Part shown: positions 20,908 through 39,882 of the stretch, in pieces
How the letters are laid out: every line of letters begins with the position of its first letter
Numbering within the stretch: the stretch's first letter is position 1
Source of the DNA: a virus
Reading direction: 5' to 3' (one strand)
Virus record (IMG/VR): IMGVR_UViG_3300037189_005209
Span: 1 to 39,882 of that record
Length of the DNA stretch: 39,882 nucleotides
The notes under the pieces: model-generated
What the model was told of the DNA's origin: nothing
The model's input: the letters and a program-made list of their open reading frames with translations, nothing else
Databases searched by the model: none
Program-made: the position numbers and the translations under genes

Positions 20908-23900
20908 ATGGCGGAAATAAAAAATAGTTTTCTATCGTCTAAAATGAATCAAGATTTAGACGATAGACTTATACCTAACGGTGAATATAGAACTGCACTT
21001 AATATTTCTATTGGTAAATCGGAAAATAGTGATATTGGTACATTACAAAATATACTTGGTAACACCATTGTTGGATTGGAAAATACTATAATTGGATTAG
21101 AGTGTATTGGGTATTATATGGATAGTACTGGAAACAGGATATTCCAATTCTTGACTAATGAAGGGGATAATGATACTGACCCTATATATCATCAAATAAC
21201 TGTTTATGATTTTACAAATAACACTTATACGGTATTAGTAGAGGGTGCTTTTTTAAACTTCTCAAAATCATATCAAATAACAGGAGTTACTCTTATTGAA
21301 AATTTATTATATTGGACAGATTATAACAATCAACCAAGAAAAATAAATATTAATTCCGCGTTAAATGCCCCTGCTTATAGTGCCGCTCCTTATTATACAA
21401 ATGAAGATCAAATATCTGTAGCAAAATATGCTCCGGTAGAAGCAATGTCATTGTATAAAAAGGTTGTAACAACTAATACGGCAATTGTTGCTGCTTCAAC
21501 TACAATACCTGTTGCAAGCACTAATGGTTTAGTAGAGGGAATGACTTTATTAACGGATGCGTATGCTAGTAATGAATTTGTATTCATAGAAAGTATAACT
21601 GGATCAAATGTAACAGTTTCAGTCCCTATTACATTATCAATTAATACGGAATTAACATTTTTAATTTCTACCATGTCTAATCAAAGTGAAGACCCTTACT
21701 GGCCTGGTGATCCGGCATATTTAAAATCAAGATATGTAAGATTTAGTTATAGATTTAGATTAGATGATGGGGAATACACTTTAATGGCTCCATTCACTCA
21801 AATAGCTTTTATTCCAAACCAAAAAGGATATTTTATAAATGGAAATGAGAATGAAGCTTACACAAGTACCGTATTAAATTGGTTTGAAAATAGCATTAAT
21901 AATATACAATTACTTGTACCATTTCCAGACTTAACTTCTAATGTAACTCAGTCTTATAAGATTCAGTCATTAGATATATTATATAAAGAATCAGATGGGC
22001 AGACCGTTAAAATATTAGACACAATTTTAAGTGCTCAGTTTGCTCAAAATACATTAAATAATAGTAATATATATATATACGATTATCAATCAAGAAAACC
22101 ATATAAAACACTTCCCCCTGATCAAATTACAAGAGTATATGATATAGTTCCTGTAAGAGCTAAAGGGCAGGAAACCTCTAGCAATAGAATAATATATGGT
22201 AATTTTGTTAGTGGATACACTGCTCCTCAATCATTAAACTATCAAGTTTCAGTTGGTGCAAAACAAGATTATTCATATAATTTTATAGAATATCCAAATC
22301 ATACCGTAAAACAAAATAGAACGTATCAAGTTGGATTTATATTGGCAGATAAATATGGAAGACAATCTTCTGTAATTTTATCTTCATTAGATACTTCCGC
22401 AACTTTAACAGCTAATGGGACTTATGGCGGATCAACAGTATATTCACCATATTACTCAGAAGCTGATATACCATCTATAAAAGATTGGTATGGAGACGCA
22501 ATATCTGTTTTAGTAAATAGTCCTATAGTTTCAAATTATAATAGACCTACAGGAGAGCCTGGATTATACGCAGAATCAACTTCAACAACTGGATTTACAT
22601 TAACAGGAACTACAACAATAACTAATACAACTTATATTTTTACTGTAAGTGGAGGAATTATACCTAATGAAGGGGAATATTTAAGAGGTCAATATACAGA
22701 TTATGTAAAAATAAAAACTATAACAGGCACTTATCCTGGACCGTTTACTGCTACAACAGAAGGTAGAGTTAATAGTATATATGCTAGAAATACGGATAAT
22801 GATCCGAATGATATTAAATACGTATATACTATTAATCCTTTAGGTTGGTATTCATATAAAATTGTAGTGCGACAACAAGAACAAGATTATTATAATGTTT
22901 ATCTTCCTGGGTTTTTAGATGGTTACCCAAAGGGACAGACCTATGGTTCCCAAGTTGTATACGATTCAACCGGAATACCATCTACACAGAATGGAATAAA
23001 TACTACTGTATTTCCAACTGCAGAATCTGGTACTGTGGCCCATACAGTATTAATAAATGATAATATAAATAAAATACCTAGAGACTTAGTTGAAGTTGGT
23101 CCAGATCAAAAATTATATAGAAGTAGTGTTCAATTATTTGGTAGAGTTGAAAATACTATTAATACTGGTGTTGCATCTAATACTCAATATTATCCATCTA
23201 AAAAGGCGGATACGGCTATTGCAATTGCTACAGCATCGGAATTAAGTTTTTTACCAGCAACAGTTGAGAACAAGAGAGGATCAGCTACTTATAATTTTTA
23301 TCAATTAGAAAGTAATCCATTAATTGCTCGTATATCTACAACAAATGATATAGGGGTAGTTGCTGTTGAAAATAGTGCAGTATCTCCATATCCGTCTAAT
23401 CCAAATAATATGCTACCTTATTTAGGGGTTTACGAAACTAAACCAGATTATTCTTTACTAGATATATTTTGGGAAACATCCACTAGTGGGTTAATATCAG
23501 ATTTAAATACTGATGTATTAACTGGTTATGATGGCGCAAATGGAATATCAGAAATAAATTGGAGTACTTTTACAGAAGATTTAGATCCTAATGACTCAGC
23601 AGACAAATTTATAACTGGATATTTTTATCCAATATCAAATACTGGTATGCCTGTAAACTCTACAAATGCAGCTATATCTGTAGTAAATGGATATGGTAAT
23701 CCTATAACTGGAGTTTTTGGATTAGAATCAACATACGTTGGTGGAGGTACTCCACATTATGAATATAGAATTTACATGCAACCTAATCAATACCAAGTAT
23801 TTAGAAATGATGTGAATCTAGGGAAATATACATTTATATTTTCTTTTATTCAAGACGGCCAAACCTCAACTACATCTTATAATTTAAATGCACAATTAAG

Positions 23901-25068
23901 GAATATTGCACCAACAATAACAGATACTGCTTTAAATCCATTAGCTGGACCAGTTAATGTATATTTGAATAGTCCTATTACAACAGGTACTCCTGTGTAT
24001 TCTTTATGGGGTAAAAATGGATCAAACCCTGGAGCTGCCCAAAACTTTACAGATCTTCGATGGAAAATAAATAATACCGGATCAACTTCAGGTTGGCAAA
24101 ATTATTTTAATATAATTACAGATCCTTCATTAAGCTTAGGTGGAATATACCAAATTAATCCATTAAATGATAATCAAATTATTACATTGAATGTTGAATT
24201 GCAAGATGCAATGAGTTCGTCCGGCGTGCCTGCTAATGGGAACGGCTATTACGGCTCTTTATCTGATAATATAACTATAAATATACAATTAGCATCTGTA
24301 TTAATTTGCGGAAGAAGATGGACAAGTCGTAATTATGATGGAGATCGATACCAAGATGGGACTATAATACCTCAAGCAATAAATGCAACACAATGGTCAA
24401 ACGCTACCACAGGTATGTGGTGTTACCCTAATTTTGATGAAGCAAATGCGTATTTAGGTAAGTTATATAATGTATATGCTATAAATGGTATATGGAGTGC
24501 ATCAAACCCGGGGGATAAAAAACAATTTGCCCCTACCGGATTTAGAGTTCCATTCTATCAAGAACAATGTATACTAAGTTGTACCAATACCACCCATATG
24601 AAATCATTAACTCCTGCTTATCCAGCTCCTGGATCATGGGTTCCAAGTGTACATTTAGGAGACAACTCTACTGGATTTTCAGCATTACCGGCTGGTTATA
24701 TGGATGAAACAGGCACTTGGGTAAATACTGGTGGTAATGGACAAATAGCTATATACCATATGTTACCTCCAACTGCTAGTTTCTTAGATAATAGTCCTGC
24801 TTATATGGCTATTTATGGAAATACTGATACAGCCGATATACAACAGGGTGTACCTATGAGATGGGGATTATCTGTAAGATTTGTAGATAATTTCTCTATA
24901 ACTAAAACAATAACAAATACAGCTTTACCTGGCGGACCTAATTGTATTGTTACATATAACGACACAAACTTTGGAAATCCACACGTAGATTCAATAGTTC
25001 CGGGACAATCTGAAGTAATTGTAGCCTGCGCTACTTGTACAATAGGTGGTAACTGTACAATTACATAA
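20908..25068 (+). CDS. Large tail protein: nozzle-like region plus C-terminal FISUMP domain
   Basis: 1386 residues. The N-terminus (KNSFLSSKMNQDLDDRLIPN, GEYRTALNISI) is a signature of large tail 'stabilization'/nozzle proteins of crAss-like and marine phages. Residues 132-145 contain a YWTD segment followed by NNQPRKI, suggestive of beta-propeller blades. The middle is Thr/Asn/Tyr-rich and beta-structured, with FWETSTSGLISDLN near 854-867. About residues 1132-1330 form a FISUMP-like domain: GRRWTSRNYDGDRY, then TTGMWCYPN, then LGKLYNVYA, then GFRVP, ending in RWGLSVRFVDN. A Cys-rich tail follows. It probably contacts the host surface. FISUMP domains are typical of Bacteroidetes surface proteins. 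Confidence 0.75.
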   Translation: MAEIKNSFLSSKMNQDLDDRLIPNGEYRTALNISIGKSENSDIGTLQNILGNTIVGLENTIIGLECIGYYMDSTGNRIFQFLTNEGDNDTDPIYHQITVYDFTNNTYTVLVEGAFLNFSKSYQITGVTLIENLLYWTDYNNQPRKININSALNAPAYSAAPYYTNEDQISVAKYAPVEAMSLYKKVVTTNTAIVAASTTIPVASTNGLVEGMTLLTDAYASNEFVFIESITGSNVTVSVPITLSINTELTFLISTMSNQSEDPYWPGDPAYLKSRYVRFSYRFRLDDGEYTLMAPFTQIAFIPNQKGYFINGNENEAYTSTVLNWFENSINNIQLLVPFPDLTSNVTQSYKIQSLDILYKESDGQTVKILDTILSAQFAQNTLNNSNIYIYDYQSRKPYKTLPPDQITRVYDIVPVRAKGQETSSNRIIYGNFVSGYTAPQSLNYQVSVGAKQDYSYNFIEYPNHTVKQNRTYQVGFILADKYGRQSSVILSSLDTSATLTANGTYGGSTVYSPYYSEADIPSIKDWYGDAISVLVNSPIVSNYNRPTGEPGLYAESTSTTGFTLTGTTTITNTTYIFTVSGGIIPNEGEYLRGQYTDYVKIKTITGTYPGPFTATTEGRVNSIYARNTDNDPNDIKYVYTINPLGWYSYKIVVRQQEQDYYNVYLPGFLDGYPKGQTYGSQVVYDSTGIPSTQNGINTTVFPTAESGTVAHTVLINDNINKIPRDLVEVGPDQKLYRSSVQLFGRVENTINTGVASNTQYYPSKKADTAIAIATASELSFLPATVENKRGSATYNFYQLESNPLIARISTTNDIGVVAVENSAVSPYPSNPNNMLPYLGVYETKPDYSLLDIFWETSTSGLISDLNTDVLTGYDGANGISEINWSTFTEDLDPNDSADKFITGYFYPISNTGMPVNSTNAAISVVNGYGNPITGVFGLESTYVGGGTPHYEYRIYMQPNQYQVFRNDVNLGKYTFIFSFIQDGQTSTTSYNLNAQLRNIAPTITDTALNPLAGPVNVYLNSPITTGTPVYSLWGKNGSNPGAAQNFTDLRWKINNTGSTSGWQNYFNIITDPSLSLGGIYQINPLNDNQIITLNVELQDAMSSSGVPANGNGYYGSLSDNITINIQLASVLICGRRWTSRNYDGDRYQDGTIIPQAINATQWSNATTGMWCYPNFDEANAYLGKLYNVYAINGIWSASNPGDKKQFAPTGFRVPFYQEQCILSCTNTTHMKSLTPAYPAPGSWVPSVHLGDNSTGFSALPAGYMDETGTWVNTGGNGQIAIYHMLPPTASFLDNSPAYMAIYGNTDTADIQQGVPMRWGLSVRFVDNFSITKTITNTALPGGPNCIVTYNDTNFGNPHVDSIVPGQSEVIVACATCTIGGNCTIT

Positions 25069-25097
25069 AAAAAAAGAAAAACAAGTAATTATAATAT

Positions 25098-26675
25098 ATG
25101 AGTGCAACAATAGAATTAAAATATTTCAATTCTTTTTGGCTTAAAAAAATGAAGTCAATCACAGATGTAACACCAAGCGCTCCGGATGCTAATCAACCGG
25201 CTATTGCGGTGCCATTACATGGAACATCTATAACTTTAGCAAGTGCTCAGCCAAATATAGGGCCAGGACAAGCAATATATTATACAATATCTGGTAATAC
25301 TTATACTTCTATAATAAAAAGTTCTGCAGGAGCCGTTATACAATTAATGTCTCCTACGGAAACCGCTATTGCAACTACTGTAAAACTTACGTTTGGCGAA
25401 ATTATAGATTTTAAATATGTACCAAGCTCTAGTGTATATAGTTATGATAAAGCAACTGACTGGTATATAGAGGAAGCTAGAATTAGAGGCGGTTATAACA
25501 ATACGACTGTTGACTTTGGTGTTAAAGCATATACTGTATTAGAAACCAATGCACAACAAAATAGACCAAATTCACTTATATATTCTGGTATATTTAATTC
25601 TAGAACAGGTGTAAATAATACAAATCAATTTTCTGTTGCTGATGATATAACTCGTTCGGTAGACCCAATAAATGGATCAATCCAAAAGTTATATGCGGAG
25701 GATACCAATCTTATTATATTCCAAGAGTTTAAAGTAAGTAGAGCGTTAATTGATAAAGATGCTGTATATTCCGCAGATGGTCAACCAATGACTACATCTG
25801 GTGCCGCTGTAATAGGTCAAATACAATCCTACGCGGGAAACTATGGTATAGGAACTAACCCTGAAAGTTTTGCTGTTTATGGATATAGAAAATATTTTGT
25901 TGATAGAAATAGAAATGCTGTTTTAAGATTATCACAAGACGGGATAACTGAAATATCTTCATATGGAATGTTGGATTTCTTTAGAGATCAACTTGGTGTT
26001 ATTGGTAGTACTGGTAAAATTGTTGGCGGCTGGGATATACATAACAAACAGTATGTTTTATCTTTACAGCCAAATGCATATTCAACTAATAATAAAGGAC
26101 AACAATTGCCATCATATACATTAGCATTTGATGAAGATTCTTTAGGATGGACAAGTTTCTTTAGTTATATACCTAATTATATGGACGGTATGCGTAATAA
26201 TTATTATAGTTTAAAAGACGGTAATATATGGGAACATTACTCTACAAATGTAAATAGGGGTAATTTTTATGGAGTAACATATACTTCCTATGTAACATTT
26301 GTATTCAATCCTAATCCTTCATTAGTTAAAAACTTTAACACTATAAATTACGAAGGTACACAAGGCTGGGTGATGAATAGTCTATATACAGATACTGACA
26401 AAGCTATCCCAATCAATGCAAATTTTACTGCTCAAAGTTTAGCTCAATTAGAAGCAAATTTGTTTACAAACAACTTTAAGCAAAAAGAAAATAAATTCTT
26501 TGGAAATATATTTAATAATACTACAGTATCTGGAGGAGATGTGATTTATGGACAATCGATGTCCGGTATAAAAGGATTATACGCTATAGTTACTATGACT
26601 TTAAATAATTCAATATATCCAAATCAAGCGGAACTTTATGCATGTTCTGCTGAATATGTGGAATCATCATATTAA
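25098..26675 (+). CDS. Tail nozzle-type structural protein (beta-propeller candidate)
   Basis: 525 residues. Successive blade-like units are visible: GSIQKLYAEDTNLIIFQEFK, FAVYGYRKYFVDRNRNAVLR, ITEISSYGMLDFFRD, and GGWDIHNKQYVLSL. The repeats of short strands ending in Asp/Asn turns fit a beta-propeller, the fold of the P22 gp10/T7 gp12-type nozzle at the end of short tails. It starts 29 bases after the 1386-aa tail gene in another frame. The two may be halves of one nozzle assembly that is a single protein in some relatives; that comparison is from memory. Confidence 0.65.
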   Translation: MSATIELKYFNSFWLKKMKSITDVTPSAPDANQPAIAVPLHGTSITLASAQPNIGPGQAIYYTISGNTYTSIIKSSAGAVIQLMSPTETAIATTVKLTFGEIIDFKYVPSSSVYSYDKATDWYIEEARIRGGYNNTTVDFGVKAYTVLETNAQQNRPNSLIYSGIFNSRTGVNNTNQFSVADDITRSVDPINGSIQKLYAEDTNLIIFQEFKVSRALIDKDAVYSADGQPMTTSGAAVIGQIQSYAGNYGIGTNPESFAVYGYRKYFVDRNRNAVLRLSQDGITEISSYGMLDFFRDQLGVIGSTGKIVGGWDIHNKQYVLSLQPNAYSTNNKGQQLPSYTLAFDEDSLGWTSFFSYIPNYMDGMRNNYYSLKDGNIWEHYSTNVNRGNFYGVTYTSYVTFVFNPNPSLVKNFNTINYEGTQGWVMNSLYTDTDKAIPINANFTAQSLAQLEANLFTNNFKQKENKFFGNIFNNTTVSGGDVIYGQSMSGIKGLYAIVTMTLNNSIYPNQAELYACSAEYVESSY

Positions 26676-26691
26676 AAATAAATTAAATTAA

Positions 26692-27099
26692 ATGGAATTA
26701 CAAGTAAGAGCACTACAAGAATCAGATTGGGAAGATCTGCAATCTTGGTGGAAATGGTGGCGTTGGCCAGAAGTATCAAAAGAAACATTACCGCTTAATG
26801 GATTAGGCGGTTTAATGGTATATAAAGGAGACGTTCCAATTGCAACAGGATTTTTATATCTTTCAAACTCGAAGGTGGCATGGTTAGATTGGATTGTATC
26901 TAATCCTCAATATAAGGAAAAAGATAGAAAGCAATCATTAGAACTACTTATAAATTCATTAGAGGAAGTTGCAAAACAGCAAGATTATAGTATTATAATA
27001 AGTATTACAAGAAGTAAACCTTTAATGGATATACATAAAAAATTAGGGTACATGGTGGATTCAAATCCATCATATGAAATTTCAAAAAAAATAAAATAA
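26692..27099 (+). CDS. GNAT-family acetyltransferase-like protein
   Basis: 135 residues, with the GNAT order: an N-terminal strand-helix opening (LQVRALQESDWEDLQSWW), a strand pair with GLMVYKGDVPIATGFLYL, then WLDWIVSNPQY, a helix with KQSLELLINSLEEVAK, and a C-terminal HKKLGYMVD like the 'F.kkLGF' motif. The canonical acetyl-CoA phosphate loop (Q/RxxGxG/A) is degenerate here (YKEKDRKQS), so catalysis is uncertain. GNAT-like genes recur inside tail gene clusters of aquatic phages. It might modify a virion protein or a host target. Two-base spacing to the next gene places it in the ejection-protein operon. Confidence 0.65.
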   Translation: MELQVRALQESDWEDLQSWWKWWRWPEVSKETLPLNGLGGLMVYKGDVPIATGFLYLSNSKVAWLDWIVSNPQYKEKDRKQSLELLINSLEEVAKQQDYSIIISITRSKPLMDIHKKLGYMVDSNPSYEISKKIK

Positions 27100-27100
27100 T

Positions 27101-27772
27101 ATGGCAGTAATAACAGCAGCAACAGTAGCCGTTGGAGCAACGGTAGTTGGGGGATTAGTTAATGCTAATCAAGCAAAACAAGCCGCAAGAGGCTTTGCTA
27201 ATGAAGCAGAAAGAAAACAATGGGAAATTGACCAAATAGAGGCCAGTAGACAAAAAATTCCAAATCCTTATGCAGACGTTAAAAGTATTGCAAGTACATT
27301 TAAAAATCCTTATGCTAATGTAGGTGTCGCTACTCAAGCTGCCGAAATGCAGGCAGAAGAAGCTGATATATCATTAGCAAATACATTAGATTTATTAAGA
27401 TCTACTGGAGCAAGTGCGGGAGGGGCAACAGCTTTAGCTCAAGCTGCATTAAATAGCAAAAAAGGTGTTTCGGCTAGCATTGAAGCTCAAGAGTCTAAAA
27501 ATGAACAATTAAAAGCGCAAGGGCAACAGGAACTTAATCAAATGGTACTACAAGATGAACAAAGAGTTCAAGGATTGAAAGCCGAAGGCATTAAATTCCA
27601 ATATGGAGAACAAGAGTCTCGTGATATTGCAAAACTTAATAGACTTTCTGGAATGCAAGCACAAGCACAAGCAAATCAAGCATCTGCACAAGCCGCACAA
27701 GGAGCTGCATATGGATCTATATTTAGTGGGATTGGCAATATTGCTAGTGGAGTTATAAGTGCTAGTAAATAA
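27101..27772 (+). CDS. Internal virion / ejection protein candidate (small)
   Basis: 223 residues. A glycine/alanine-rich hydrophobic N-terminus (ITAATVAVGATVVGGLVNAN) could insert in a membrane. A long Gln/Ala/Glu coiled coil follows (QAAEMQAEEADISLANTLDLL), and the C-terminus has a second Gly-rich stretch (GSIFSGIGNIASGVISA). This is the composition of small ejection proteins, such as T7 gp14, that exit the capsid first and form a channel in the outer membrane. The next two genes are larger candidate ejection proteins, so the three likely act together. Two bases after the GNAT gene. Confidence 0.65.
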   Translation: MAVITAATVAVGATVVGGLVNANQAKQAARGFANEAERKQWEIDQIEASRQKIPNPYADVKSIASTFKNPYANVGVATQAAEMQAEEADISLANTLDLLRSTGASAGGATALAQAALNSKKGVSASIEAQESKNEQLKAQGQQELNQMVLQDEQRVQGLKAEGIKFQYGEQESRDIAKLNRLSGMQAQAQANQASAQAAQGAAYGSIFSGIGNIASGVISASK

Positions 27773-27793: not shown

Positions 27794-29245
27794 ATGGGAT
27801 ATTATGAAAATCCTCCTATAATAAACTTCACAGAGGGATATAATAAAGTTACTGAGGGCATCGTCAATGCTTCTAAATCTATATCCGAAGCTTTAATTCG
27901 TAGAGGTGAAAGAGAAAGATTAACAATAGAAAAACTACAGCAACAAAAGAACGAAGTTGATCTAGCTTATAACTCAAAGTTATCTGAATGGGATGCTAAA
28001 ACGCCAATCGGTAATGATGAACTTAATTCAAAAATACACGGGTTATTACAGCAAAAAATACAATTAGCGGCGGATTCTAGGATTGCATTATTATCTGAAA
28101 CAGATAATGCAAAAAGAGCAGAGTATTTAAAGCATATTCGTAATGCTGATGTATTTATGTCTAATGCCTCTACCTTTGCGAAGAATATCGCGATGGATAC
28201 AGCAACATGGAGAGAAAATGCCGCAGCTATAACTGTAGGCTCACAAAACGGTTGGGTTGTTAATGGTAAAGATGCTCAAGAAATTGAAGCAAGAACTGGA
28301 GCGGTTGAAATATTAGGTGGACTAGATCAATTATATGATGAACGTAGTATTGATATAGAAGATACAGGAGATAGTTTTAGATTAAAGATTAAAGGTAAAA
28401 GAAAAGGATCAGAGCAAGGATTTGAATTACCAATTGATGCAAGATCATATATAAGTTCAGATGAAGGTGGCGCTGGAGGATTTTTACAAAAAGTGGAAAA
28501 CTTAGATGAGTTTACTAAAATGTCTAAGAAAAATATTGTTGATGAAAAAGGTAATTTAAAAGAAAACTTTTTAAGTCAAAATATTGAAACTGCAAAAATA
28601 AATGATCAATATCGAATTGTGTATGGCCAAAGATTAGATGCAGATGGGGTTAGAAAAGAAATACAAAAACAAGCCAGTATTAAAGCTTCTGGTTATTTAA
28701 GGGCAGATAAGGAATCTAGTTTACGATCTTTAATAAATTATACCTTAAAACAAGGACCAGAATTTTACGATACAAAATTTAAAGGTCTACAAACAGTTGA
28801 AGAAAAACAAGAAATGCTAACTGAGTTATTAACCAATCAAGCTTTTAATTCTATAACTTCTGATTTACATAGAACAAAAGAAGGGGATAAAGATGTTTAT
28901 TGGGGGCCAAATTCAAAAGTAGATTTAATAGAAACAGAAACCACAAGCAAAAGCAATAAGAAAGGTGGACTTAATTCTGGAAAAACAACTATTGTAAAAA
29001 ACTCTATATTAGATCCTGAGGAAATAGATGCCTATGCTAAAAATTTTAATATGCTGGTGCGTAATAGAGAAGGCCAATTTGTTGTAGATTATCCAGGACC
29101 AGAAGGCGGAACTGGAGAAAATGAAACTTTTGCTGTGGAAAAAGGAAAAATAATTAGTGACAAAAGAAATGTTCCGTTTAAAAGCACAGAAGAATTTAAA
29201 CAATATTTAAAAAGTAAAACTAGAAAAACAAAATTAATTAAATAA
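27794..29245 (+). CDS. Internal virion / ejection protein candidate (medium)
   Basis: 483 residues, mostly helical and charged. After GYYENPPIINFTEGYNKVTE comes a long coiled coil (~25-110: RRGERERLTIEKLQQQKNEV) followed by mixed alpha/beta segments such as GFELPIDARSYISSDEGGAG and a basic C-terminus (KSKTRKTKLIK). It resembles the middle component of three-protein ejection sets (small, medium, giant). It ends seven bases before the giant gene. No enzymatic motif was seen. Confidence 0.6.
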   Translation: MGYYENPPIINFTEGYNKVTEGIVNASKSISEALIRRGERERLTIEKLQQQKNEVDLAYNSKLSEWDAKTPIGNDELNSKIHGLLQQKIQLAADSRIALLSETDNAKRAEYLKHIRNADVFMSNASTFAKNIAMDTATWRENAAAITVGSQNGWVVNGKDAQEIEARTGAVEILGGLDQLYDERSIDIEDTGDSFRLKIKGKRKGSEQGFELPIDARSYISSDEGGAGGFLQKVENLDEFTKMSKKNIVDEKGNLKENFLSQNIETAKINDQYRIVYGQRLDADGVRKEIQKQASIKASGYLRADKESSLRSLINYTLKQGPEFYDTKFKGLQTVEEKQEMLTELLTNQAFNSITSDLHRTKEGDKDVYWGPNSKVDLIETETTSKSNKKGGLNSGKTTIVKNSILDPEEIDAYAKNFNMLVRNREGQFVVDYPGPEGGTGENETFAVEKGKIISDKRNVPFKSTEEFKQYLKSKTRKTKLIK

Positions 29246-29252
29246 TTATAGT

Positions 29253-32200
29253 ATGTTAGAATATGTAAATGAAAATGGTGAATCTTACACCGAGGATGAA
29301 ATAAATCAATTTGCAAAAGATAATAAAATTTCTATTGACGAAGTAATTAAAAAAAATAAGCTAACTGCTAAAAAACAAAGCCAAACCGTTAAGCCGGGAA
29401 AGCAAAAAACCGTTGCGGAAAAGGATGTAACTGTAACGGGAATAAATACGGCATCCAAATCGGGAAATACTTCTTCGGTTTCCAAAAAGCGTAAATCATT
29501 ATTTGACCAAGGTATAGAAACATTTGCTCCTGATCTTAAAGCCTCTTTTGAGGAATCTATGAATAAAACCATACAAAAAAAGAAAAAGGAGAAAGTTGCT
29601 TTTGAGACGTCTATAAAATCTAAAGGAATTCCAGGAACAGGTAGTAATGAAATAATTGAACCAACTATAGAGTCTGAAAAAGATTTACAAAAAACTATCA
29701 AAGAATCTTCTAAAGATAAATATTACCGATTACAACAATTAGGTAATGGATTACATCCTAGTTTATCCCATGAAGAAGGTGATGTAGCATGGGATGAAAA
29801 TGGTCTTAAAGGACCATCAAAATCTTATGTGCAAAAAGTTCAAGATGAAGCAGAAGCAAAAAAGCAAGAAGAAGAAGACTCAAAGTTAAATAATTATAGT
29901 GATAAATTAGGGGATAGCGTTTGGTCTACTCAAGAAGATTTAAACAATTACCAAAATAATGAAATATGGAATGCTTTAATTCCAGACGATCAAAAAAATC
30001 AATTAGGTAGTTCAATGGCTCCTGTGAAATTAACTAGCGAAACCTCTGTTAATCCATTAGGAATTGCGGATCAATCCCAAGAAATGGTAATTGACTGGAG
30101 CACAATACCAGATGGCGACTTAATTATAAAAGGTTTACCTACATTACAAAATAAATGGATTACTAAAAATGGACAAGTTCAATTGCAAAATGATCAGGCT
30201 GCTGGCATTGATCCTTATGCAAAAGCGCTGAACAATGGTAAATTATTTTTATCCACAAATGAAAAGAATTTACAAAAAAATCAAAGTTTATTATTACTTG
30301 CTAAAAAAAATAATAATAAGTCAGAAATAGACAGATTACAAAATGAAATCCAAAAGCAAAGAGACGAATTATCATTAGGTGGAAATTTATATGACCCTGC
30401 AACAGGTAAGTTGCTTACTGTAACTGATAAAAGAAAGGTTATTGCTAAAAGCAATGAAAAAGCAAAACAGATTGCAAATGATACACCATACACGGTGCTT
30501 AATCAAATGCAAGCTAAAACCTATTATGAGTTATTGGCATTGTCAAAAGAAGCTTATAAAAGGAAAGATAAAATTTATCGTTCTGAAACAGGATTAGAAA
30601 AAATAGGTACATTTTTAAAAAGTATTACACCAGGTATATCAAATGGATATTATGATGATGTTAAAAACTTAGAATCCATTGCAAAAACTGGGTACTTACC
30701 TAAAACATTAAATGAATTACCTGGCAAACATCCTATTTCTGCAGCTTTTAATAAAAAATTGCAACAATACATTACTTTAACAAAAGCAATGGAATTAAAT
30801 AATGATCCAATTACTACAGAATCTAATAGTAGAGCAGTAGACTTTTTAGATCAAACATTTAAAGCATTTACAAACCAAGGACATTATTCCGCTGTTGGGC
30901 CAGTTAATAGAAAAGAAGCTGCAGTTGCTTTTAATGATATGATGGCTACTGCGGGATTTGAATATAAAAATAAAGATGTAGTTGATAAAAAAGTTGAACA
31001 AACATGGAAAGATATTGCTATAGGGAGTACAGCTGAAATGACTCCTTTGATCGCGGCAATGTTCTTAACAAAAAAAGTTACTGGTCCCCAAATCACTCAA
31101 GCAGGGAATATTGCTACAAAAGTTGTACAGAATTCACTTGGAAATACTAAGGCGGTTAATACAGCCACAAGATTATTTATAGGTGGATTAAGTGAAGCTG
31201 CTCATATGAAAATAGCAGATAAAGTTTTACAACCAACCACCGGAGCGCCCGCAACAGACGGTACATTTGCTTTTTCATTAGGAGTAGGAAATGTAGTAGC
31301 AGAAGACTTAATAAAAACAATGGTAACTAAAAAAATACCTTTTGTTACACCTGTGTTAGCTACATTAGCAACCAAGTCTAAACTTGGGAGTAAGGTTGGA
31401 GAAGTAGCATTAGGGGCGGCAATTGGTACCGCTACTATGAAAGTTGCTGAAGGAGCCGCATTAGTTAAAGATCAATTATTAGCAAAAGGTCAATTAGATC
31501 AAGCAAAACAGTGGGAAGAACTTACTGATAAGCAACATTTAGCGGGTACTTTTTGGTCAATGACCTTATTAGGCGGATTTGCTCCTAAAGGATTTTATGA
31601 TGCATTAAAATCTGATATAAAATCTATCCCTGTGTTTAATACAGAATCTATAAGAGCAGGTAAATTATTAGATATAGATCATAAATTACCTGATAATACA
31701 AAAGATTTAGTAAATAGAGACAATGAAATAGATACTGCTGAACAAAAGGCTTTAGATAATTTAAATAAAAAATATAAAAATTCTACTGACTTTGAGACAA
31801 TGGCAAAAGAAGAAGTAGAAATTAGAAAAGCAGCTAATGTTTTAAGGGGTGATCTTGAAATAAAAAATGCTAAATTAAATATTGAAGCGGGTCATGAAAA
31901 TTCATCTTTAGCCGATGTATGGGTTGCAACTAATAAATTAAAATACGGTGAACAACTAAATGGTGCGGATGCTCATGCTTTATCTATCACTCCCTCTTCT
32001 ATAATTAAAAACCAATTAGGGCTTAATTCTAATGACCCTTTATATAAATTTATTAAAAGAGAACAACAAGAAGCTGAATCATATGGTAAAAAATTAGACG
32101 ATGCTGGCATATTTGGAGATACAGAAGAAAGAAAAGAATTACTAGGAAATTACTTTAAGGCAAGAGATATTTATAGAAAAATAAATGACTTAAAAATAGA

Positions 32201-35200
32201 CTCTAAATCAAATCCTGCTTTTGAAAATTTAAATAACTCAAAAATACAAGAATTTGAAAAACAATTAGAAGAATTAAACAATAATAATAATGAATTATTA
32301 GAATCCCATAAAGTAAGAACAGATAGAGATTTTAATATAGATTTACAAGCGGCTATTGATTTAGCAGAAAAAACCGGTAAAACACCACCTGTACAATATG
32401 GTACTACAAAAGAATTTATTGATGCTTATAAAGAATTAAATGAAGGAAAAGAGCCTTCTGCAGATTCTAATGCATTTTTTCATAATGGTGTTATGCATAT
32501 AAATGTTGAAAGAGGTAAAGAGCAAAGATTAGTCGGAACATCTACTCACGAGGGCACCCACAGTGTTTTATCAAATTGGATGAAAGATGAAAAAGGAAAT
32601 CTTACTCAAGAGGGAGTTGACTTTATTGATGACTGGAAAAATAAGTTATCGCCAAAAGAACGAAAAGTAATTGATGATCGTATAAATGAAAACTATAAAT
32701 ACGACAAAGATGAAGAAGGTAATATTATTTTAAGCACTGAAAAAGATAAAAAAGAATACTACGAGGAATATTTAACTGCTTTTGTTGAAGCAGTTAGAGA
32801 AGGTAAAATAACCTATAAGTCTGATTCATTTGCTAAATTAAAAGCACCATTTGAAAAAATACTGTCAAGCATCGGCTTTAAAAATCCTAAATTTTTACCT
32901 GGCGAAAAAGGTTTAAAAGAAATGTACGATATGTTAAAAGATATTGCTGAATCTGGTAAACAAGGCAAAGCAAGTGAAATGGCTGTTGAATTTGCCAATA
33001 AAAGAGGTGAAGCACCAGAAAATGGAAAAATATCTTTTTCAAAAGCAAAAGCAGCAGAAGTACAAAAGAAAATAGATAAATTGGAAGATCAATTTGATAA
33101 TGATGAAATTGATTATGATACCTATTCTAATAATCTTGATACTCTTGAAAAAGAACTTGAAAAAGCTAAAGCTTTACCTGAAGAGGAAATAAAACCTGTT
33201 ATTAAAAAAGAAGAATTATCAGACGAAGACGAAGTTAAAGAAATAATAAAATCTGAAAAAGGATCTATATCATCTAATAAAGTTCAAGAAATTTATGATA
33301 AAAAAGGCATTTCTGGCGCAGATGAAATTATAAATTTATTTAAACCAATTACAAAAAGGATTGTAGATAAACGTAGAGATGCTCCTGGGTTTGATAGAGA
33401 ATTATTTACAGATGAAATTGAAACTGGTAAAGGAGGTATTTTAGATTTAATTTCTAAATATGATCCAAAACAAGGCACTCCATTAGCGGCTTATATTAAT
33501 AAATATTTACCTGTAAGAGCAATTGCTACATCAAGAAGATTACTAGATAGTGACTTTAAAAAAGACATTACAGAAGAAAAAGGTTTAATGGCTGAAGAAA
33601 CTGCTTCTGAGGCAAAAGAAAAACCAAAATATAAGAATGCATTAGAGTCAAAAGTTTTTGAGCCAGAAGTCTTAAAAACAATGTCTGATAAGGTCTTGAC
33701 CACTCTTCGTACATTAAAGTCTCGTATTGATGCTCCAATATCCTTGAATCGTACAGTTACCCCGTTAATTGCAGAGATAAGAGATTCGATGGGTAAACAA
33801 TTGGACATTGATGTTAAAAAAGCAATGGGCGGTAAAAAAGATAATGAATTGGTAAATTGGTTATTGAAAAATAAACGTTACATGCTTGAAAACATGACCA
33901 CTACATGGTTGATGGGTGCAAATGGTCAAGGTGGTATTCCACAAGCAATACAAAAAAGAATTGATGGTAAATGGGTAAGTTATCCTGAATGGGTTGATAA
34001 AAAAATAGATAGAGAATCTGTTTCAACTGATAATGCAGGTAGAACGTCTGGCGCTGAATTAGTTAGAAGATTACCTAATGTATTTAATAATGTATCTGAT
34101 ACAGATTACTTAGGACAATTTGTTGGTCCTGATGGAAATCCACTTCGTGGAAGAAAAGAATCAGGAGCTAAAGCGGTTGCAGAAGAACTTGCGTTTGACT
34201 TAATTATTAAAGACTTTGAAGAAGATGGTCCATTATCACAAGCTTTATCAACAAATCAAGAAAGATTAGGAATTGAATTAAGTGGCGCTCTTGAAGCAGA
34301 ATTTAATAGACAAGTTGAAAGAGGTAATGTTAAATTTTCTAAAACATCTGATCGTAATACGGCTTTATTCTTATTAAAAGAAGGCAACTGGAATAAAGAT
34401 TATCCAGAGTTTGTTGAATTTAAAAATTCATTAAGACCTGAAGAACGAAGAAGTTTAAATGGCTTTTTAAATGGTACTAAATCATTACAAGATAAATATG
34501 ATGAAGTATGGAATAGAAATGCAGGAGTTAGATATGAAAAAAATACTTATTCTGCTCTTAGAACTCAATTAAAAGGGTATTTAAATAAAACAGGAATTGA
34601 ATTAAAGGAAACTGTTCCAGATAGATTTAATAGTTTAAAACCTGATTTAGAATTAGTAGATAAAAAATCAAATAATAATACTATTATTGAGTTAAAATCT
34701 AATGCAAGAGATTACATGGGAAGTACCAGTAATAGTTACTTTTTAAATTCGAATAGTAAATTTACAAAAGAATTTGAAGGATTAAATAATTTATTAGAAG
34801 CTCAAAAAGCAAATAAAAGTAGAACTGCATTTATTAATAATTTAATAAAATTAGCAAAAGAAGGAAGTAAAGATGTTAAATTAACAGAAGGAGGAGGAAT
34901 TTTAATAAGCAATAAATTATATAAGGAATTAGATAGAATAGATACTATAACAAATGCAAAAATTCCTGTTAAAGCACTTGCTGATATAAATCCAGGTAAA
35001 GATGTTTTACAAATAGAAAACGTTGGTGCTTTCGCTTTTCCTGGTAGTAATATGGCTGAAACAGGATTAATACCTATTCTTAAAGGTGATATATATGTTT
35101 CAACTGAATTTAGAACACGAAGTGTTGGTAAAGGATGGAGAAATTTAATAGAAAGGGCTTATTTCAATCTTGAGCCAAACTTTAGTGAAAAAACAACAAT

Positions 35201-38087
35201 TAGTTTAGACTCAACTCCAGAAAAATTTTTAGATGCCGTTAAATATTCTGGTGAATTAGTTAATGGTAGAAGGGATAATAATACAAGTGAATCTACATTA
35301 AATTCATTAACACCTGAAAGAGACACAAAAGGAATTGGAGTTTTTGATTTTGATGACACGGTAGGACTCACTAAGAGTAATGTGCTATACACAATGCCTG
35401 ATGGTTCCACTGGTAAATTAAACGGAGCGGAATTTGCAAGGGAAGGATCAAAATTATTAAGTGAAGGCGCGCAATTTGATTTTTCTGAATTTAGCAAAGT
35501 AGTTGAAGGTAGGCCTGGCCCAATGGTTGAAAAACTTAAAAAAATGTTAAGTAAGTTTGGAAATAAAGATATGTTTATTCTTACTGCACGTCCAGCCGAT
35601 TCTGCTGGTCCTATTAAAGCATTCCTAGACTCTATAGGTATTGATATTCCCATAGAAAATATTACTGGATTAGGGAACAGTAGCCCACAAGCAAAAGCAG
35701 ACTGGATGGTTGAAAAAGCAAATCAAGGGTATAATGATTTTTATTTTGCAGATGATCATTTAGGAAATGTTGACGCTGTTAGAAATGCTCTTGATGTACT
35801 TGATGTTAAATCAAAAATTCAACAAGCACGTGCTCAATTTAGTAAATCATTAAGTAGAGATTTTAACCAAATTATAGAGGATACTAAAGGAATTGAAAGT
35901 TATAAAGTGTTTTCAGATGTTGTCGCTAGAAGAAGAGGGGCTAAAAAAAATAAACTTGATTTATATGTTCCGCCATCAGCAGCAGACTTTGAATTGTTAT
36001 TATACAACTTCATGGGGAAAGGGGCTAAAGGTGAAGAACATAAAAAATTCTTTAATGATGCATTGCTAAAACCATATATAAATGGTAATGATTTAATGGA
36101 CGCAGCAAGACAATCAATTAAAAGAGAATATAAAAAATTAAATAATCAATTTCCTGAAGTACGAAAAGAATTAGAAAAATTAACGCCTGATGGAGATTTT
36201 ACTTATGATCAAGCAATACGTGTTTCTATATGGTCTGATAATAATGTGGAAATACCTGGCTTATCAAAAAGAGATCAAAGAAAATTAACTGATCTTGTAA
36301 ATAATGATCCAGAACTTTCTGCTTTTAAACAAGGGCTTATAATTACTGGCAGACAAGGTAAAGGATGGATTGCCCCCGGAGAGCATTGGGATTCAAGTAC
36401 TATTATATCTGATTTACATAATTTGACAGAAGGTGAAGGTAGAAAAAAATTCTTAGGTGAATTTATTGACAATGCAAAAGCCATGTTTGGTGAATGGGAT
36501 AATGGTAAATTAGTTGGTCCTAATATGAACAAGATCGAAGCTGTTTATGGAACTAATGTTAGAGAGGCTTTGGAGGATTCTATTTACAGAATGACTACTG
36601 GTAAAAATAGAAGTTTTGGTAAAGATGCGGAAACAAGTAGATGGAGCAATTGGGTTAATGGATCTACGGGGACTATTATGTTTTTGAATACTAGATCTGC
36701 TGCATTACAATTATTAGGAGCTGTTAACTTTTTAAACTTTAGAGATAATAATCCAATAGCCGCTGCAAAAGCTTTTGCTAATCAACCACAATATTGGAAA
36801 GATTTTGCCCGTATTTGGAATTCAGATAAAATGAAAGAAAGACGTGGCGGTTTGAAAGAGGATGTTGCAGCTGCTGAAATTGCTAATGCTGCTGCAGGAA
36901 GTAAAAATAAAGTTAATGCTGTAGTTTCTTATTTATTAAAAATAGGATATACTCCAACGCAAATTGCGGACAGTTTTGCAATTGCATCAGGGGGAGCGCC
37001 ATTCTATAGAAATAGAATCAAATCTTATCAAGCTGAATATGAAGGAAAACCTAGCGAACCAATACAAAGAAAATATACAGATGAAGAGGCAGAAAAATTA
37101 GCATGGCAGGACTTTACAAAAGTGTCAGATGAAACTCAACAATCAGGTGATCCAAAAGATATATCAAAACAACAAGCAAGTGGAGCAGGTAGGCTACTCC
37201 TCACTTTCCAAAATACTGCAATGCAGCAATCGCGTATTGTTAAGAAGGCTTATTTAGATTTAAAAAATGGAAGAGGTGATGTTAAAACCAATATATCAAA
37301 AATAGTTTATTACCTTACAGTTCAAAACTTAATGTTCTCTGCTTTACAACAAGGATTATTTGCAGTGGCTTTTGGAAATGAAACAGATGATTCAGATGAT
37401 GATAAAGAAAAAGCTAAAAAAGCAAATGATAAGAATAAAAAATTATTTGAAGTTGCAGATGGTGTATTAGATTCTATCTTAAGAGGAACTGGTTTCATTG
37501 GGGGTATAACTGCTACAACAAAAAACATGATCCTAAAATATATGGAGGAACATGAAAAGAAACAAGCTGATTATGCTAAAGTTGCATTTGAATTTGCAAA
37601 TATTTCACCACCAGTTGGATCCAAACTTAAAAAACTTTATAGTGGATTAAATCAAACTAAATATGATAAAGATCTTATAGAGGAAAGAGGTTGGGGGATA
37701 ATGCAAGATGGTAGAGTTCATTTAGGCCCAATGTATTCCGTAACCGGAAAAGTTGTGGAGGCTACAACAAACTTACCTATGGATCGTTTGCAAAACAAAA
37801 TAGAAAATGTTTCTCAAGCATTAAATTCACAAAATGAAGCATGGCAAAGAATGATGATTGCCGCTGGATGGAGTCCATATAGTGTTGGAATTGAAGGGAC
37901 GCCTGGTGATTTAAAAATCCAAGCTGCAGGAAAAGCTCAAAGAAAAGAAGAAGGCAAAATTAAAGCCGAAGAATCAAGAGAGCGTAAACGAGATTCAATA
38001 AAGAATTTGCCTTTTGGTGAACAATTACGTTTAAAAAGAGAAGCAAAAATGAAAAGAATGCGTAATAAATCAAGAAAAATGGGTTGA
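29253..38087 (+). CDS. Giant polyvalent virion/ejection protein, 2944 aa
   Basis: The longest gene here. Domains in order: N-terminal Lys/Gln-rich region; weakly hydrophobic Gly/Ala-rich segments (~590-800); an HExxH metallopeptidase-like domain (HEGTH, His1099-His1103; Glu1171 or Glu1172 as a possible third ligand); a sigma-70 region 2-like segment (~1340-1425, with LISKYDPKQGTPLAAYINKY, Tyr1403); a PD-(D/E)xK nuclease-like domain (Glu1762, Pro1797-Asp1798, Glu1813-Lys1815); a HAD phosphatase-like domain (Asp2032, Asp2034, Thr2111, Lys2148, Asp2167/2168); and a long C-terminal module with a membrane-like helix near 2684-2706 and a basic end. Enzymatic domains strung on one chain fit the published 'polyvalent protein' concept (Iyer, Aravind and colleagues) of effectors delivered with phage DNA. 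It ends in TGA. Confidence 0.8.
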   Translation: MLEYVNENGESYTEDEINQFAKDNKISIDEVIKKNKLTAKKQSQTVKPGKQKTVAEKDVTVTGINTASKSGNTSSVSKKRKSLFDQGIETFAPDLKASFEESMNKTIQKKKKEKVAFETSIKSKGIPGTGSNEIIEPTIESEKDLQKTIKESSKDKYYRLQQLGNGLHPSLSHEEGDVAWDENGLKGPSKSYVQKVQDEAEAKKQEEEDSKLNNYSDKLGDSVWSTQEDLNNYQNNEIWNALIPDDQKNQLGSSMAPVKLTSETSVNPLGIADQSQEMVIDWSTIPDGDLIIKGLPTLQNKWITKNGQVQLQNDQAAGIDPYAKALNNGKLFLSTNEKNLQKNQSLLLLAKKNNNKSEIDRLQNEIQKQRDELSLGGNLYDPATGKLLTVTDKRKVIAKSNEKAKQIANDTPYTVLNQMQAKTYYELLALSKEAYKRKDKIYRSETGLEKIGTFLKSITPGISNGYYDDVKNLESIAKTGYLPKTLNELPGKHPISAAFNKKLQQYITLTKAMELNNDPITTESNSRAVDFLDQTFKAFTNQGHYSAVGPVNRKEAAVAFNDMMATAGFEYKNKDVVDKKVEQTWKDIAIGSTAEMTPLIAAMFLTKKVTGPQITQAGNIATKVVQNSLGNTKAVNTATRLFIGGLSEAAHMKIADKVLQPTTGAPATDGTFAFSLGVGNVVAEDLIKTMVTKKIPFVTPVLATLATKSKLGSKVGEVALGAAIGTATMKVAEGAALVKDQLLAKGQLDQAKQWEELTDKQHLAGTFWSMTLLGGFAPKGFYDALKSDIKSIPVFNTESIRAGKLLDIDHKLPDNTKDLVNRDNEIDTAEQKALDNLNKKYKNSTDFETMAKEEVEIRKAANVLRGDLEIKNAKLNIEAGHENSSLADVWVATNKLKYGEQLNGADAHALSITPSSIIKNQLGLNSNDPLYKFIKREQQEAESYGKKLDDAGIFGDTEERKELLGNYFKARDIYRKINDLKIDSKSNPAFENLNNSKIQEFEKQLEELNNNNNELLESHKVRTDRDFNIDLQAAIDLAEKTGKTPPVQYGTTKEFIDAYKELNEGKEPSADSNAFFHNGVMHINVERGKEQRLVGTSTHEGTHSVLSNWMKDEKGNLTQEGVDFIDDWKNKLSPKERKVIDDRINENYKYDKDEEGNIILSTEKDKKEYYEEYLTAFVEAVREGKITYKSDSFAKLKAPFEKILSSIGFKNPKFLPGEKGLKEMYDMLKDIAESGKQGKASEMAVEFANKRGEAPENGKISFSKAKAAEVQKKIDKLEDQFDNDEIDYDTYSNNLDTLEKELEKAKALPEEEIKPVIKKEELSDEDEVKEIIKSEKGSISSNKVQEIYDKKGISGADEIINLFKPITKRIVDKRRDAPGFDRELFTDEIETGKGGILDLISKYDPKQGTPLAAYINKYLPVRAIATSRRLLDSDFKKDITEEKGLMAEETASEAKEKPKYKNALESKVFEPEVLKTMSDKVLTTLRTLKSRIDAPISLNRTVTPLIAEIRDSMGKQLDIDVKKAMGGKKDNELVNWLLKNKRYMLENMTTTWLMGANGQGGIPQAIQKRIDGKWVSYPEWVDKKIDRESVSTDNAGRTSGAELVRRLPNVFNNVSDTDYLGQFVGPDGNPLRGRKESGAKAVAEELAFDLIIKDFEEDGPLSQALSTNQERLGIELSGALEAEFNRQVERGNVKFSKTSDRNTALFLLKEGNWNKDYPEFVEFKNSLRPEERRSLNGFLNGTKSLQDKYDEVWNRNAGVRYEKNTYSALRTQLKGYLNKTGIELKETVPDRFNSLKPDLELVDKKSNNNTIIELKSNARDYMGSTSNSYFLNSNSKFTKEFEGLNNLLEAQKANKSRTAFINNLIKLAKEGSKDVKLTEGGGILISNKLYKELDRIDTITNAKIPVKALADINPGKDVLQIENVGAFAFPGSNMAETGLIPILKGDIYVSTEFRTRSVGKGWRNLIERAYFNLEPNFSEKTTISLDSTPEKFLDAVKYSGELVNGRRDNNTSESTLNSLTPERDTKGIGVFDFDDTVGLTKSNVLYTMPDGSTGKLNGAEFAREGSKLLSEGAQFDFSEFSKVVEGRPGPMVEKLKKMLSKFGNKDMFILTARPADSAGPIKAFLDSIGIDIPIENITGLGNSSPQAKADWMVEKANQGYNDFYFADDHLGNVDAVRNALDVLDVKSKIQQARAQFSKSLSRDFNQIIEDTKGIESYKVFSDVVARRRGAKKNKLDLYVPPSAADFELLLYNFMGKGAKGEEHKKFFNDALLKPYINGNDLMDAARQSIKREYKKLNNQFPEVRKELEKLTPDGDFTYDQAIRVSIWSDNNVEIPGLSKRDQRKLTDLVNNDPELSAFKQGLIITGRQGKGWIAPGEHWDSSTIISDLHNLTEGEGRKKFLGEFIDNAKAMFGEWDNGKLVGPNMNKIEAVYGTNVREALEDSIYRMTTGKNRSFGKDAETSRWSNWVNGSTGTIMFLNTRSAALQLLGAVNFLNFRDNNPIAAAKAFANQPQYWKDFARIWNSDKMKERRGGLKEDVAAAEIANAAAGSKNKVNAVVSYLLKIGYTPTQIADSFAIASGGAPFYRNRIKSYQAEYEGKPSEPIQRKYTDEEAEKLAWQDFTKVSDETQQSGDPKDISKQQASGAGRLLLTFQNTAMQQSRIVKKAYLDLKNGRGDVKTNISKIVYYLTVQNLMFSALQQGLFAVAFGNETDDSDDDKEKAKKANDKNKKLFEVADGVLDSILRGTGFIGGITATTKNMILKYMEEHEKKQADYAKVAFEFANISPPVGSKLKKLYSGLNQTKYDKDLIEERGWGIMQDGRVHLGPMYSVTGKVVEATTNLPMDRLQNKIENVSQALNSQNEAWQRMMIAAGWSPYSVGIEGTPGDLKIQAAGKAQRKEEGKIKAEESRERKRDSIKNLPFGEQLRLKREAKMKRMRNKSRKMG

Positions 38088-38936: not shown

Positions 38937-39882
38937 TTATGTTATTTCACAATTACCTCCGCCGCAAGCGACTGAATCACTAAAGTTAGTATTGTCTTGA
39001 ATTTCTACAACTTTTGATAGATCAACATTTTTTAATGTAGACATCATTTCTTCGTAAACTTCTTTAGTACAATCTTCAAATGGTGTTTGCTTGTAAGTTC
39101 CGCCGTGATAAGGCAATACAGATAAACCATTATAGTATTCTTTATTCGCCCACATCCATTCACCAATAATCTTCCACTCATCATCACGAACAGAAACTGT
39201 ACACGAAACATTGTGTGTATTATTACCTTTTGAATGACCTTGTTTAACCCAATCTTTAGAAATTAATTTAACTCTTTCTAATAAATCTAATGTTGATTCA
39301 TGTCTTGTTATGGCTCCATATGGAGACTTCTGTGGAACAGAAATAACTGACTGTGATGTTGGATTAAAATATTCATCTTCTAACAATTCTGGATGATTTA
39401 TAGCAAGGTAAGAATAGATTGCTTCATTCTTGCCCAATCGCATACGGCGGATATAATAATCATTATGCCAAGCATGAATCCCACTACTAGTACCAAGCAC
39501 CAAAGAAGTTGTCCCAGCTGGTTTAACAGCCGTTGTACGGGCCGCTCTGTTGATATTAATAACTGCTGAGATAACGTTATTGGTGTCTTTAACAACTTGA
39601 GCAGCTTCTTCATAGTTTAAATTTAAATTAGATTCTGATGCAATACCCGTCATTGATACTCCAAGTAATGCGTCTTTTTCTGTATTTTTTCTCCATATAT
39701 CACGTAAGTAATGAAAGTCTGAATATGACGCTTGTAAAGTTCCTAAGAATGCTGCAGCAGATGCACGAGCATTAAAGTCTTCCTGATTTTCAATGTCAGC
39801 CATATTGATCTCAGTTAAATTACAAAACTGATATGGTCTCAATGCAATCTCACAACAAGGATTAGTTCCCCAATCTTTATCA
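38937..39882 (-). CDS. nrdJ: Class II (B12-dependent) ribonucleotide reductase, C-terminal part
   Basis: The frame is open to the right edge, so the gene starts outside the window; the TTG at 39842 is internal. The end-most residues include NPCCEIALRPYQFCNLTEIN. Asn, Cys, Glu and the second Cys, eleven residues after the first, match Asn406, Cys408 (thiyl radical), Glu410 and Cys419 of the monomeric Lactobacillus leichmannii B12 enzyme. The C-terminus ACGGGNC has Cys residues five apart like its Cys731/Cys736 shuttle pair. PAGTTSLVLGTSSGIHA is the conserved substrate/cofactor loop region. It makes deoxynucleotides for phage replication independent of oxygen if adenosylcobalamin is available. 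It leads a coupled operon with the oxygenase. Confidence 0.9.
   Translation of the reverse strand, partial: DKDWGTNPCCEIALRPYQFCNLTEINMADIENQEDFNARASAAAFLGTLQASYSDFHYLRDIWRKNTEKDALLGVSMTGIASESNLNLNYEEAAQVVKDTNNVISAVININRAARTTAVKPAGTTSLVLGTSSGIHAWHNDYYIRRMRLGKNEAIYSYLAINHPELLEDEYFNPTSQSVISVPQKSPYGAITRHESTLDLLERVKLISKDWVKQGHSKGNNTHNVSCTVSVRDDEWKIIGEWMWANKEYYNGLSVLPYHGGTYKQTPFEDCTKEVYEEMMSTLKNVDLSKVVEIQDNTNFSDSVACGGGNCEIT

Follow-up and report, generated by a model that had tools for sequence, protein, structure and literature searches.

Very large phage proteins that carry disparate enzymatic domains and are predicted to be injected have been described as polyvalent proteins (Iyer et al. 2017, PMC5512222). 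In the accessible part of that study a zincin metallopeptidase is the commonest module, self-cutting of the chain by this metallopeptidase is predicted with no cutting site named, and a zeta-toxin-like kinase is found in such proteins and also fused to MuF in phages. For phicrAss001 the accessible text of PMC10172136 proposes that large cargo proteins, among them RNA polymerase proteins, are ejected with partial unfolding. In addition, the cultured phages phi40:1 and phi38:1 (gp101), phi19:3 (gp129) and elemo (QLF85284.1) all have a giant gene as the last gene of the structural operon, in the same place as the gene described below.

The window (the whole stretch of DNA analysed, a viral sequence record 39,882 bases long and probably a fragment) contains an ORF without internal stop at 29253..38087 on the forward strand, encoding a giant polyvalent virion-type protein of 2944 aa. 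It shares with the polyvalent proteins its size, several domains of disparate activity in one chain (found by sequence and fold), a zincin-like metallopeptidase with HExxH and a downstream Glu, and its C-terminus appears structurally similar to some proteins named 'large polyvalent protein associated'. By contrast, the word sigma is absent from the main text of PMC5512222 and 'had' occurs there only as a verb; neither a HAD domain as a constant element, nor a kinase inserted into it, nor a seam motif that recurs is described in the accessible part of that paper. The initial annotation had proposed a multi-enzyme chain with HExxH peptidase-like, sigma-70 region 2-like, PD-(D/E)xK nuclease-like and HAD phosphatase-like domains; this is partly borne out, a multi-enzyme protein of polyvalent type being supported. 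Exchange of modules in the middle of the chain was not part of that annotation, nor were the two features new here, a VKFSK seam motif and a Zeta/PezT-like kinase inserted into the HAD domain of nine relatives.

The phage shows likeness to Pervagoviridae, Pachyviridae and Elemovirus and its hosts are aquatic bacteria. Two of its proteins, the terminase (phrog_6681) and a virion protein encoded at 16460-17938, have matches in elemo phages of Flavobacterium, in Cellulophaga phages of the phi38:1 and phi19:3 types, in the Maribacter phage Panino and in an uncultured Manatee Spring podovirus (64% for the terminase). Like phicrAss001 it has crAss-type muzzle domains, identified with Pfam in two forward-strand genes (20908..26675): crAss_MUZ (E 6e-14) in the first ~150 aa of the product of gene 20908-25068, which also has a Fib_succ_major domain (aa 1132-1326, E 1.8e-12), and crAss_MUZ_C (E 1e-10) in gene 25098-26675. 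These genes likely provide the exit route for the giant protein.

Relatives were collected by scanning IMG/VR twice; the first scan gave 6 loci and the second 272 relatives, 80 of which were retained. The resulting set consists of 84 giants from IMG/VR loci, the 2944-aa protein included (loci are designated by the prefix L below); 71 non-redundant giants remained after removal of 13 near-identical or short ones, and addition of five giants from named phages gave a set of 89 proteins. The alignments covered 40 of 42 sigma-like matches (A2), all 35 listed sequences (A3), 70 of 74 (A4), 56 of 58 slots (A5), 53 of 68 HAD segments (A6) and nine sequences (A7). Profiles made for the domains matched 84 (HAD), 83 (C-terminal module; among those missing, L006 is cut off), 54 (zincin), 42 (sigma-like), 29 (domain following the sigma-like one) and three (nuclease module, the 2944-aa protein being one) of the 89 proteins. 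Five named relatives were examined, in each of which the giant gene ends the structural operon; it encodes 3859 aa (MW202828), 3694 aa (elemoA), 1691 aa (phi38:1), 1829 aa (Panino) and 1871 aa (phi19:3), and none of the profiles just listed matched any of these five giants. The named-phage giants thus differ from the 2944-aa protein in domain content, and for gp101 also in its length of 1691 aa, while elemoA has an HExxH of its own. In that giant (L012, 2564-13648), where the profiles of the 2944-aa protein gave no match, a DUF3293 domain (E 1e-12) and an HEIFH motif were observed.

Pfam and PHROGs gave only weak matches over the entire 2944-aa protein (best E 0.12 and 0.021), tblastn against a phages collection gave a single match, confined to the HAD part and located in the record of a jumbo phage, and PADLOC gave none for aa ~1050-1350, 1461-2034 and 2020-2196. 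A pattern-based scan of genome_contigs revealed a single relative (L095), whose giant has 3323 aa; it lies on a MAG contig of 11.7 kb that was binned as Maricaulis and is probably phage DNA. One relative in this collection fits a protein of lytic phages.

The giant had been annotated initially as the last member of a small, medium and giant set of ejection-type proteins, and comparison with phi40:1 agrees with this. Genes for proteins of 223 aa (27101..27772) and 483 aa (27794..29245), both on the forward strand, precede the giant gene, and gp099, gp100 and gp101 of phi40:1 occupy the places of the small, medium and giant genes respectively, each with the note 'annotation based on experimental MS/MS proteomics analysis'; in phi40:1 the giant gene and the four genes preceding it carry such a note of MS/MS detection. 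Relatives of the small protein occur in 37 of the fetched loci, among which there is no named phage, and the medium one has a single relative among the fetched loci (L056, 45%).

The N-terminal part of the giant (aa 1-1059, 29253..32429, forward strand) has weak hydrophobic stretches at aa 588-606 and 720-738, and its aa 120-1060 are similar only to L019 among the 89 proteins. A module of ~320 aa at the N-terminus is common to phi38:1 gp101 (99.9% identical to phi40:1 gp101), phi19:3 gp129, the elemo giant and many relatives of the 2944-aa protein; it is found in 42 other proteins of the 89, and an iterated search recovered it in 43 of the 89 entries, including phi38:1, phi19:3, elemoA and Panino. 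The chain of similarity runs from L005 to phi19:3 (E 8e-8) and from there to phi38:1 (E 4e-19), and through this shared module the named-phage giants are tied to the family. When searching for the module in the N-terminus of the 2944-aa protein no significant match was obtained (aa 714-856 with E 0.32; hhalign probability 3.5), and the profile match at aa 1226-1376, through which this protein enters the list of 43, was judged to be coiled-coil drift. The virion assignment is therefore made by synteny and by a chain through relatives. The accessible part of PMC13288928 lists methylated virion proteins of phi38:1 (GroEL, capsid), gp101 not being mentioned in it.

The putative zincin-like metallopeptidase is situated at aa 1060-1262 (32430..33038, forward strand) with the motif HEGTH at aa 1099 (base 32547). 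The residues H1099, E1100 and H1103 as well as the downstream E1172 (base 32766), a candidate for the third ligand, are invariant in all 35 sequences of alignment A3. An HExxH motif upstream of the HAD domain is found in all 71 non-redundant giants (mean 0.5 in shuffled sequences), which together with the active-site residues upholds the peptidase-like domain of the initial annotation. Among these giants 20 bear the HExxH and escape the zincin profile, and the surroundings of the motif differ, so that the peptidase itself seems to vary.

The next domain, aa ~1337-1462 (33261..33638, forward strand, with YDPKQG at 33459), was recognised by profile and, weakly, by fold as resembling sigma-70 region 2. 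When a profile of 40 relatives was compared with solved structures, sigma factors came first (E 0.0011 and 0.04) and made up seven of the 12 rows at E<=10, the alignment covering what we take to be regions 2.2-2.3. In the structure model the same residues align with a chain of a SigmaS complex (6omf_F, Z 8.8, 91 residues) and one of an E. coli initiation complex (8ftd_L, Z 8.7, 89 residues), which is weak for a helical fold, as according to the fold tool's own note helical folds with Z below 13 may reflect a common arrangement. The cut-off of Pfam Sigma70_r2 was missed, with E 0.24 in one of 40 members and no match for the copy in the 2944-aa protein, and the domain is for this reason called sigma-like only and not a sigma factor. 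Of the region 2-like domain first proposed, the profile side thus stands, with weak agreement from the fold. A chance helical resemblance with no binding of RNA polymerase seems rather unlikely to us: it would fit the missed cut-off, the Z below 13 and the conservation, which in 42 members reaches 85% only at P1405, R1422 and a few tail positions, and it sits poorly with sigma factors topping the profile search and with a fold alignment on those very residues. The residues by which sigma factors melt DNA are not evidently kept, a point against the effector reading given below. Directly after the sigma-like domain there is often a conserved domain of no known family (aa 1462-1695, 33636..34337, forward strand), found in 29 of the 89 proteins, and no Pfam family was matched in this slot of the 2944-aa protein.

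The payload that follows (aa 1695-1935, 34335..35057, forward strand) appears to be PD-(D/E)xK nuclease-like. Its signature D1798...E1813-x-K1815 (bases 34644, 34689 and 34695) is kept in all three sequences bearing the module, the 2944-aa protein included, and predicted strands are located at the expected places, which by our reading would fit an alpha-beta-beta-beta-alpha-beta core; of the nuclease-like domain suggested initially the signature is thus confirmed, the fold side consisting of predicted strands only. Among 56 payload slots, that of the 2944-aa protein included, seven Pfam families were found at E<=0.01, each with one member.

In the HAD phosphatase domain (aa 2023-2197, 35319..35843, forward strand) the four HAD motifs D-x-D, T, K and DD are represented by D2032 (the nucleophile, base 35346), D2034, T2111 (35583), K2148 (35694), D2167 and D2168 (35751), invariant in 53 of 53 sequences. 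A regular expression for these motifs missed three of the 71 giants, of which L021 and L023 are in alignment A3, with D2167 and D2168 invariant, and L005 is gapped over motif IV. At aa ~2360 of L005 the stretch of motif IV is absent in comparison with aligned relatives, either a true loss or an assembly slip.

An AlphaFold2 model of aa 1050-2200 was made from 35 sequences (mean pLDDT 74.2, pTM 0.37); Foldseek on PDB gave a best E of 0.12 for this central model, and the HAD and sigma fold matches come from VIA realignment. Structure prediction had been proposed in the initial annotation as the check on its domains, and it places the HAD part in a HAD fold and the sigma-like part, with the Z values given above, weakly in its own. 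The three best HAD matches are Pnkp 3'-phosphatases of the T4 type (4xru_D Z 12.1, 1ltq Z 11.8, 2ia5_E Z 11.4), followed by a narrow margin by Nir2 (Z 11.0) and others near 10, and two phage proteins with a PNKP phosphatase domain are among the matches in a viral library (E 6e-3 and 8e-3). With Pfam at E<=1 the region matched DUF2608 in 42 of 53 sequences (best 1.3e-5; 0.14 for the 2944-aa copy) and HAD in 27 of 53 (best 0.0075). By sequence and fold, the domain is a predicted phosphatase of the HAD superfamily, as first annotated. Membership of Pnkp was considered and found unsupported by sequence, no Pnkp being among the sequence matches and the hhalign alignment with T4 PseT being limited to motif I (31 columns, probability 31%).

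Nine relatives (L002, L003, L004, L005, L006, L059, L074, L081 and L092) have their HAD domain interrupted, shortly past the DFDDT motif, by a P-loop kinase of ~198 aa that the 2944-aa protein itself lacks. In L002, L003 and L092 the P-loop reads GKG and not GKS. In Pfam the kinase matched AAA_33 (best E 1.5e-11) and Zeta_toxin (best E 4e-10) in five of the six first relatives, the five that possess it. A Pnk-type kinase was discarded, as the PDB search ranks shikimate kinase (E 0.0034) and PezT (E 0.0089). The family is like T4 Pnkp and bacterial Pnkp1 in that these are the best HAD fold matches and that relatives pair HAD with a P-loop kinase; it differs in the lack of a sequence-level match and in having the kinase inside HAD and nearer to PezT and shikimate kinase. 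In T4 Pnkp the kinase precedes the phosphatase. In the same region of HAD, L053 (aa ~2253) and L071 (aa ~2074) carry a different insert with the sequence YYHGTS, presumably ADP-ribosyltransferase-like by eye, on which Pfam is silent.

The remainder of the chain (aa 2197-2944, 35841..38084, forward strand), found in 83 of the 89 proteins, was modelled from 70 sequences as an all-helical module of ~750 aa (pLDDT 81.8, pTM 0.76). In the viral library BFVD there are 43 matches to this model at E<=0.001, the first four being close relatives and several others named large polyvalent or ART-PolyVal proteins, those named polyvalent appearing from E 3e-6 and weaker; the LPD models of Pfam are not among the matches of the 2944-aa protein at E<=1. 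Comparison with PDB stayed at noise level, with the ejectosome chains 8vb2_A (Z 3.6) and 9k2v_A (Z 3.5) among the matches. The C-terminus had been thought to be membrane-associated, a view not borne out by hydropathy: past HAD no 19-residue stretch of the 2944-aa protein reaches a mean of 1.2, and only three of the 71 giants have one of at least 1.6.

When analysing the borders between modules, homology in BLAST was found to end within aa 1693-1706 for 16 of the 24 relatives covering aa 1600-1650. This is the position of the sequence NVKFSK (FSK at aa 1695-1697, 34335..34343, forward strand), the sole site in the 2944-aa protein of the strict seam pattern, defined as [VIL][KRQ]FS. Two further forward-strand sites fall outside the strict pattern, a seam-like FSK after the peptidase (aa 1262-1264, 33036..33044) and AQFSK after HAD (FSK at aa 2196-2198, 35838..35846), homologous to the HAD-end seam of relatives. 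The strict pattern occurs at 91 sites in the 71 giants compared with 19.8 in shuffled sequences (maximum 33), 4.97-fold against at most 1.22-fold for nine altered patterns. These sites are located at the end of HAD (44), at the end of the post-sigma domain (14), just before HAD (12), elsewhere from peptidase/sigma to HAD (14), unplaced before HAD (4), in the N-terminal part (1) and in the C-terminal part (2), and the motif is scarce outside the middle, with one site in 61,150 aa up to the end of peptidase/sigma and two in 50,058 aa past HAD. For homology breaks between all pairs, the motif lies within 12 aa in 36 of 579 cases as compared with 7.8 at random (maximum 15), and the control dipeptides FT, YS, LS and FN are not raised near the breaks. 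After HAD there is a preference for V-K-F-S-K-[ST] that is absent from the N-terminal set and weaker at the other middle seams, where K precedes F in 48 of 154 and follows S in 63 of 154. Since the 44 HAD-end sites are one homologous place, and without them the densities are close (2.4 per 10,000 aa in the giants and 2.0 in the remaining ORFs of these loci, a single conserved protein of ~360 aa accounting for 18 of the latter's 25 sites), the case for the motif is a positional one. In L023 and L056 an extra module of ~170 aa (aa 2280-2469 and 2056-2247, respectively; weak DUF6934, best E 3e-4) is situated past the seam at the HAD end, and at its far end the seam segment of ~30 aa occurs once more. 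The middle modules, as judged from these sequences, are visibly exchanged between phages, and the VKFSK-like motif is enriched at the seams. The HExxH metallopeptidase and the HAD domain are the modules present in every non-redundant relative.

Taken together, the protein is probably a polyvalent effector that is delivered by the virion and carries exchangeable payloads, and it may process itself. We infer storage, ejection and delivery, cutting, every target and the enzyme activities as follows. The virion head would contain the protein alongside the small and medium ones of 223 and 483 aa, and on ejection it would pass unfolded through the portal and the crAss-type muzzle tail, so that metallopeptidase, sigma-like domain, nuclease payload and HAD phosphatase would reach the cytoplasm together, the sigma-like domain likely docking on host RNA polymerase. 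From the peptidase as far as the conserved HAD/C-terminal end, the middle of the chain is an array of cassettes, with payload modules exchanged between phages at seams enriched in the VKFSK-like motif; the metallopeptidase may cut these seams and free modules that would then act in parallel. The presence of one strict-pattern site only (aa 1695) in the 2944-aa protein speaks against this. That the seams are only flexible linkers or places of recombination in an uncut protein, the peptidase being an effector against host proteins, has a chance that falls just short of even. The homology breaks near the motif and the duplicated seam in L023 and L056 are consistent with it, and according to the accessible text of PMC5512222 N4 vRNAP is packaged unprocessed despite such a peptidase domain; the same text has P1 DdrB cut before packaging, and recombination alone leaves the V-K-F-S-K-[ST] preference at differently flanked seams unexplained. 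A far more specific scheme, in which an injected polyprotein processes itself at V-K-F-S-K-like seams with its obligatory metallopeptidase, its released sigma-2-like subunit redirects host RNA polymerase, its nuclease or other payload is exchangeable and a Pnkp-like HAD (a kinase-phosphatase in relatives) repairs, ahead of any phage gene expression, the RNA or DNA ends that host defence nucleases leave, would be quite unlikely.

On the model of T7 gp16, the giant could chiefly be an ejectosome protein whose helical parts form a periplasmic or inner-membrane conduit, the enzymes serving entry or assembly. Its position past the small and medium proteins, the MS/MS note of the counterparts, the widely kept helical C-terminus and the two ejectosome chains among its weak matches point this way; we nevertheless regard it as unlikely, as those matches have Z under 4, a conduit would have no evident use for sigma-like, nuclease and kinase modules, and a slot in which payloads are swapped, typical of effectors, would point to effectors here as well. 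An ordinary intracellular late protein outside the virion is very improbable; the virion link of the giant does go via relatives, yet the phi40:1 counterpart carries the MS/MS note and those of phi38:1 and elemoA are annotated as structural. For the virion-delivered effector favoured here, a border motif found across dozens of related phages offers a concrete and cheap test of cutting and a map to assayable modules, and there are cultured phages of Cellulophaga and Flavobacterium whose giant gene occupies the corresponding position. A sigma-2-like domain delivered with the virion and a HAD domain that takes up kinases would point to takeover of transcription and repair of nucleic acids at entry. 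Among titles and opening lines of abstracts in the open-access literature, neither a sigma-like domain in a polyvalent virion protein nor the seam motif was found, and the same holds for the accessible parts of PMC5512222, PMC10172136, PMC8776804, PMC13288928 and PMC12373910.

Some minor observations concern other genes of the window. The gene at 38937-39842 (reverse strand), past the giant gene, gave a weak match to ribonucleotide reductase (E 2.4e-4, under the cut-off). A 135-aa protein (26692-27099) looks acetyltransferase-like by eye, Pfam being silent; it has relatives in many loci, and for a distant one, phi40:1 gp098, detection by MS/MS is noted. Ahead of the terminase a protein at 9775-10395 weakly matches Cpn10 (E 0.038), and GroEL (phrog_5725, E 2.6e-134) is encoded at 2806-4350.
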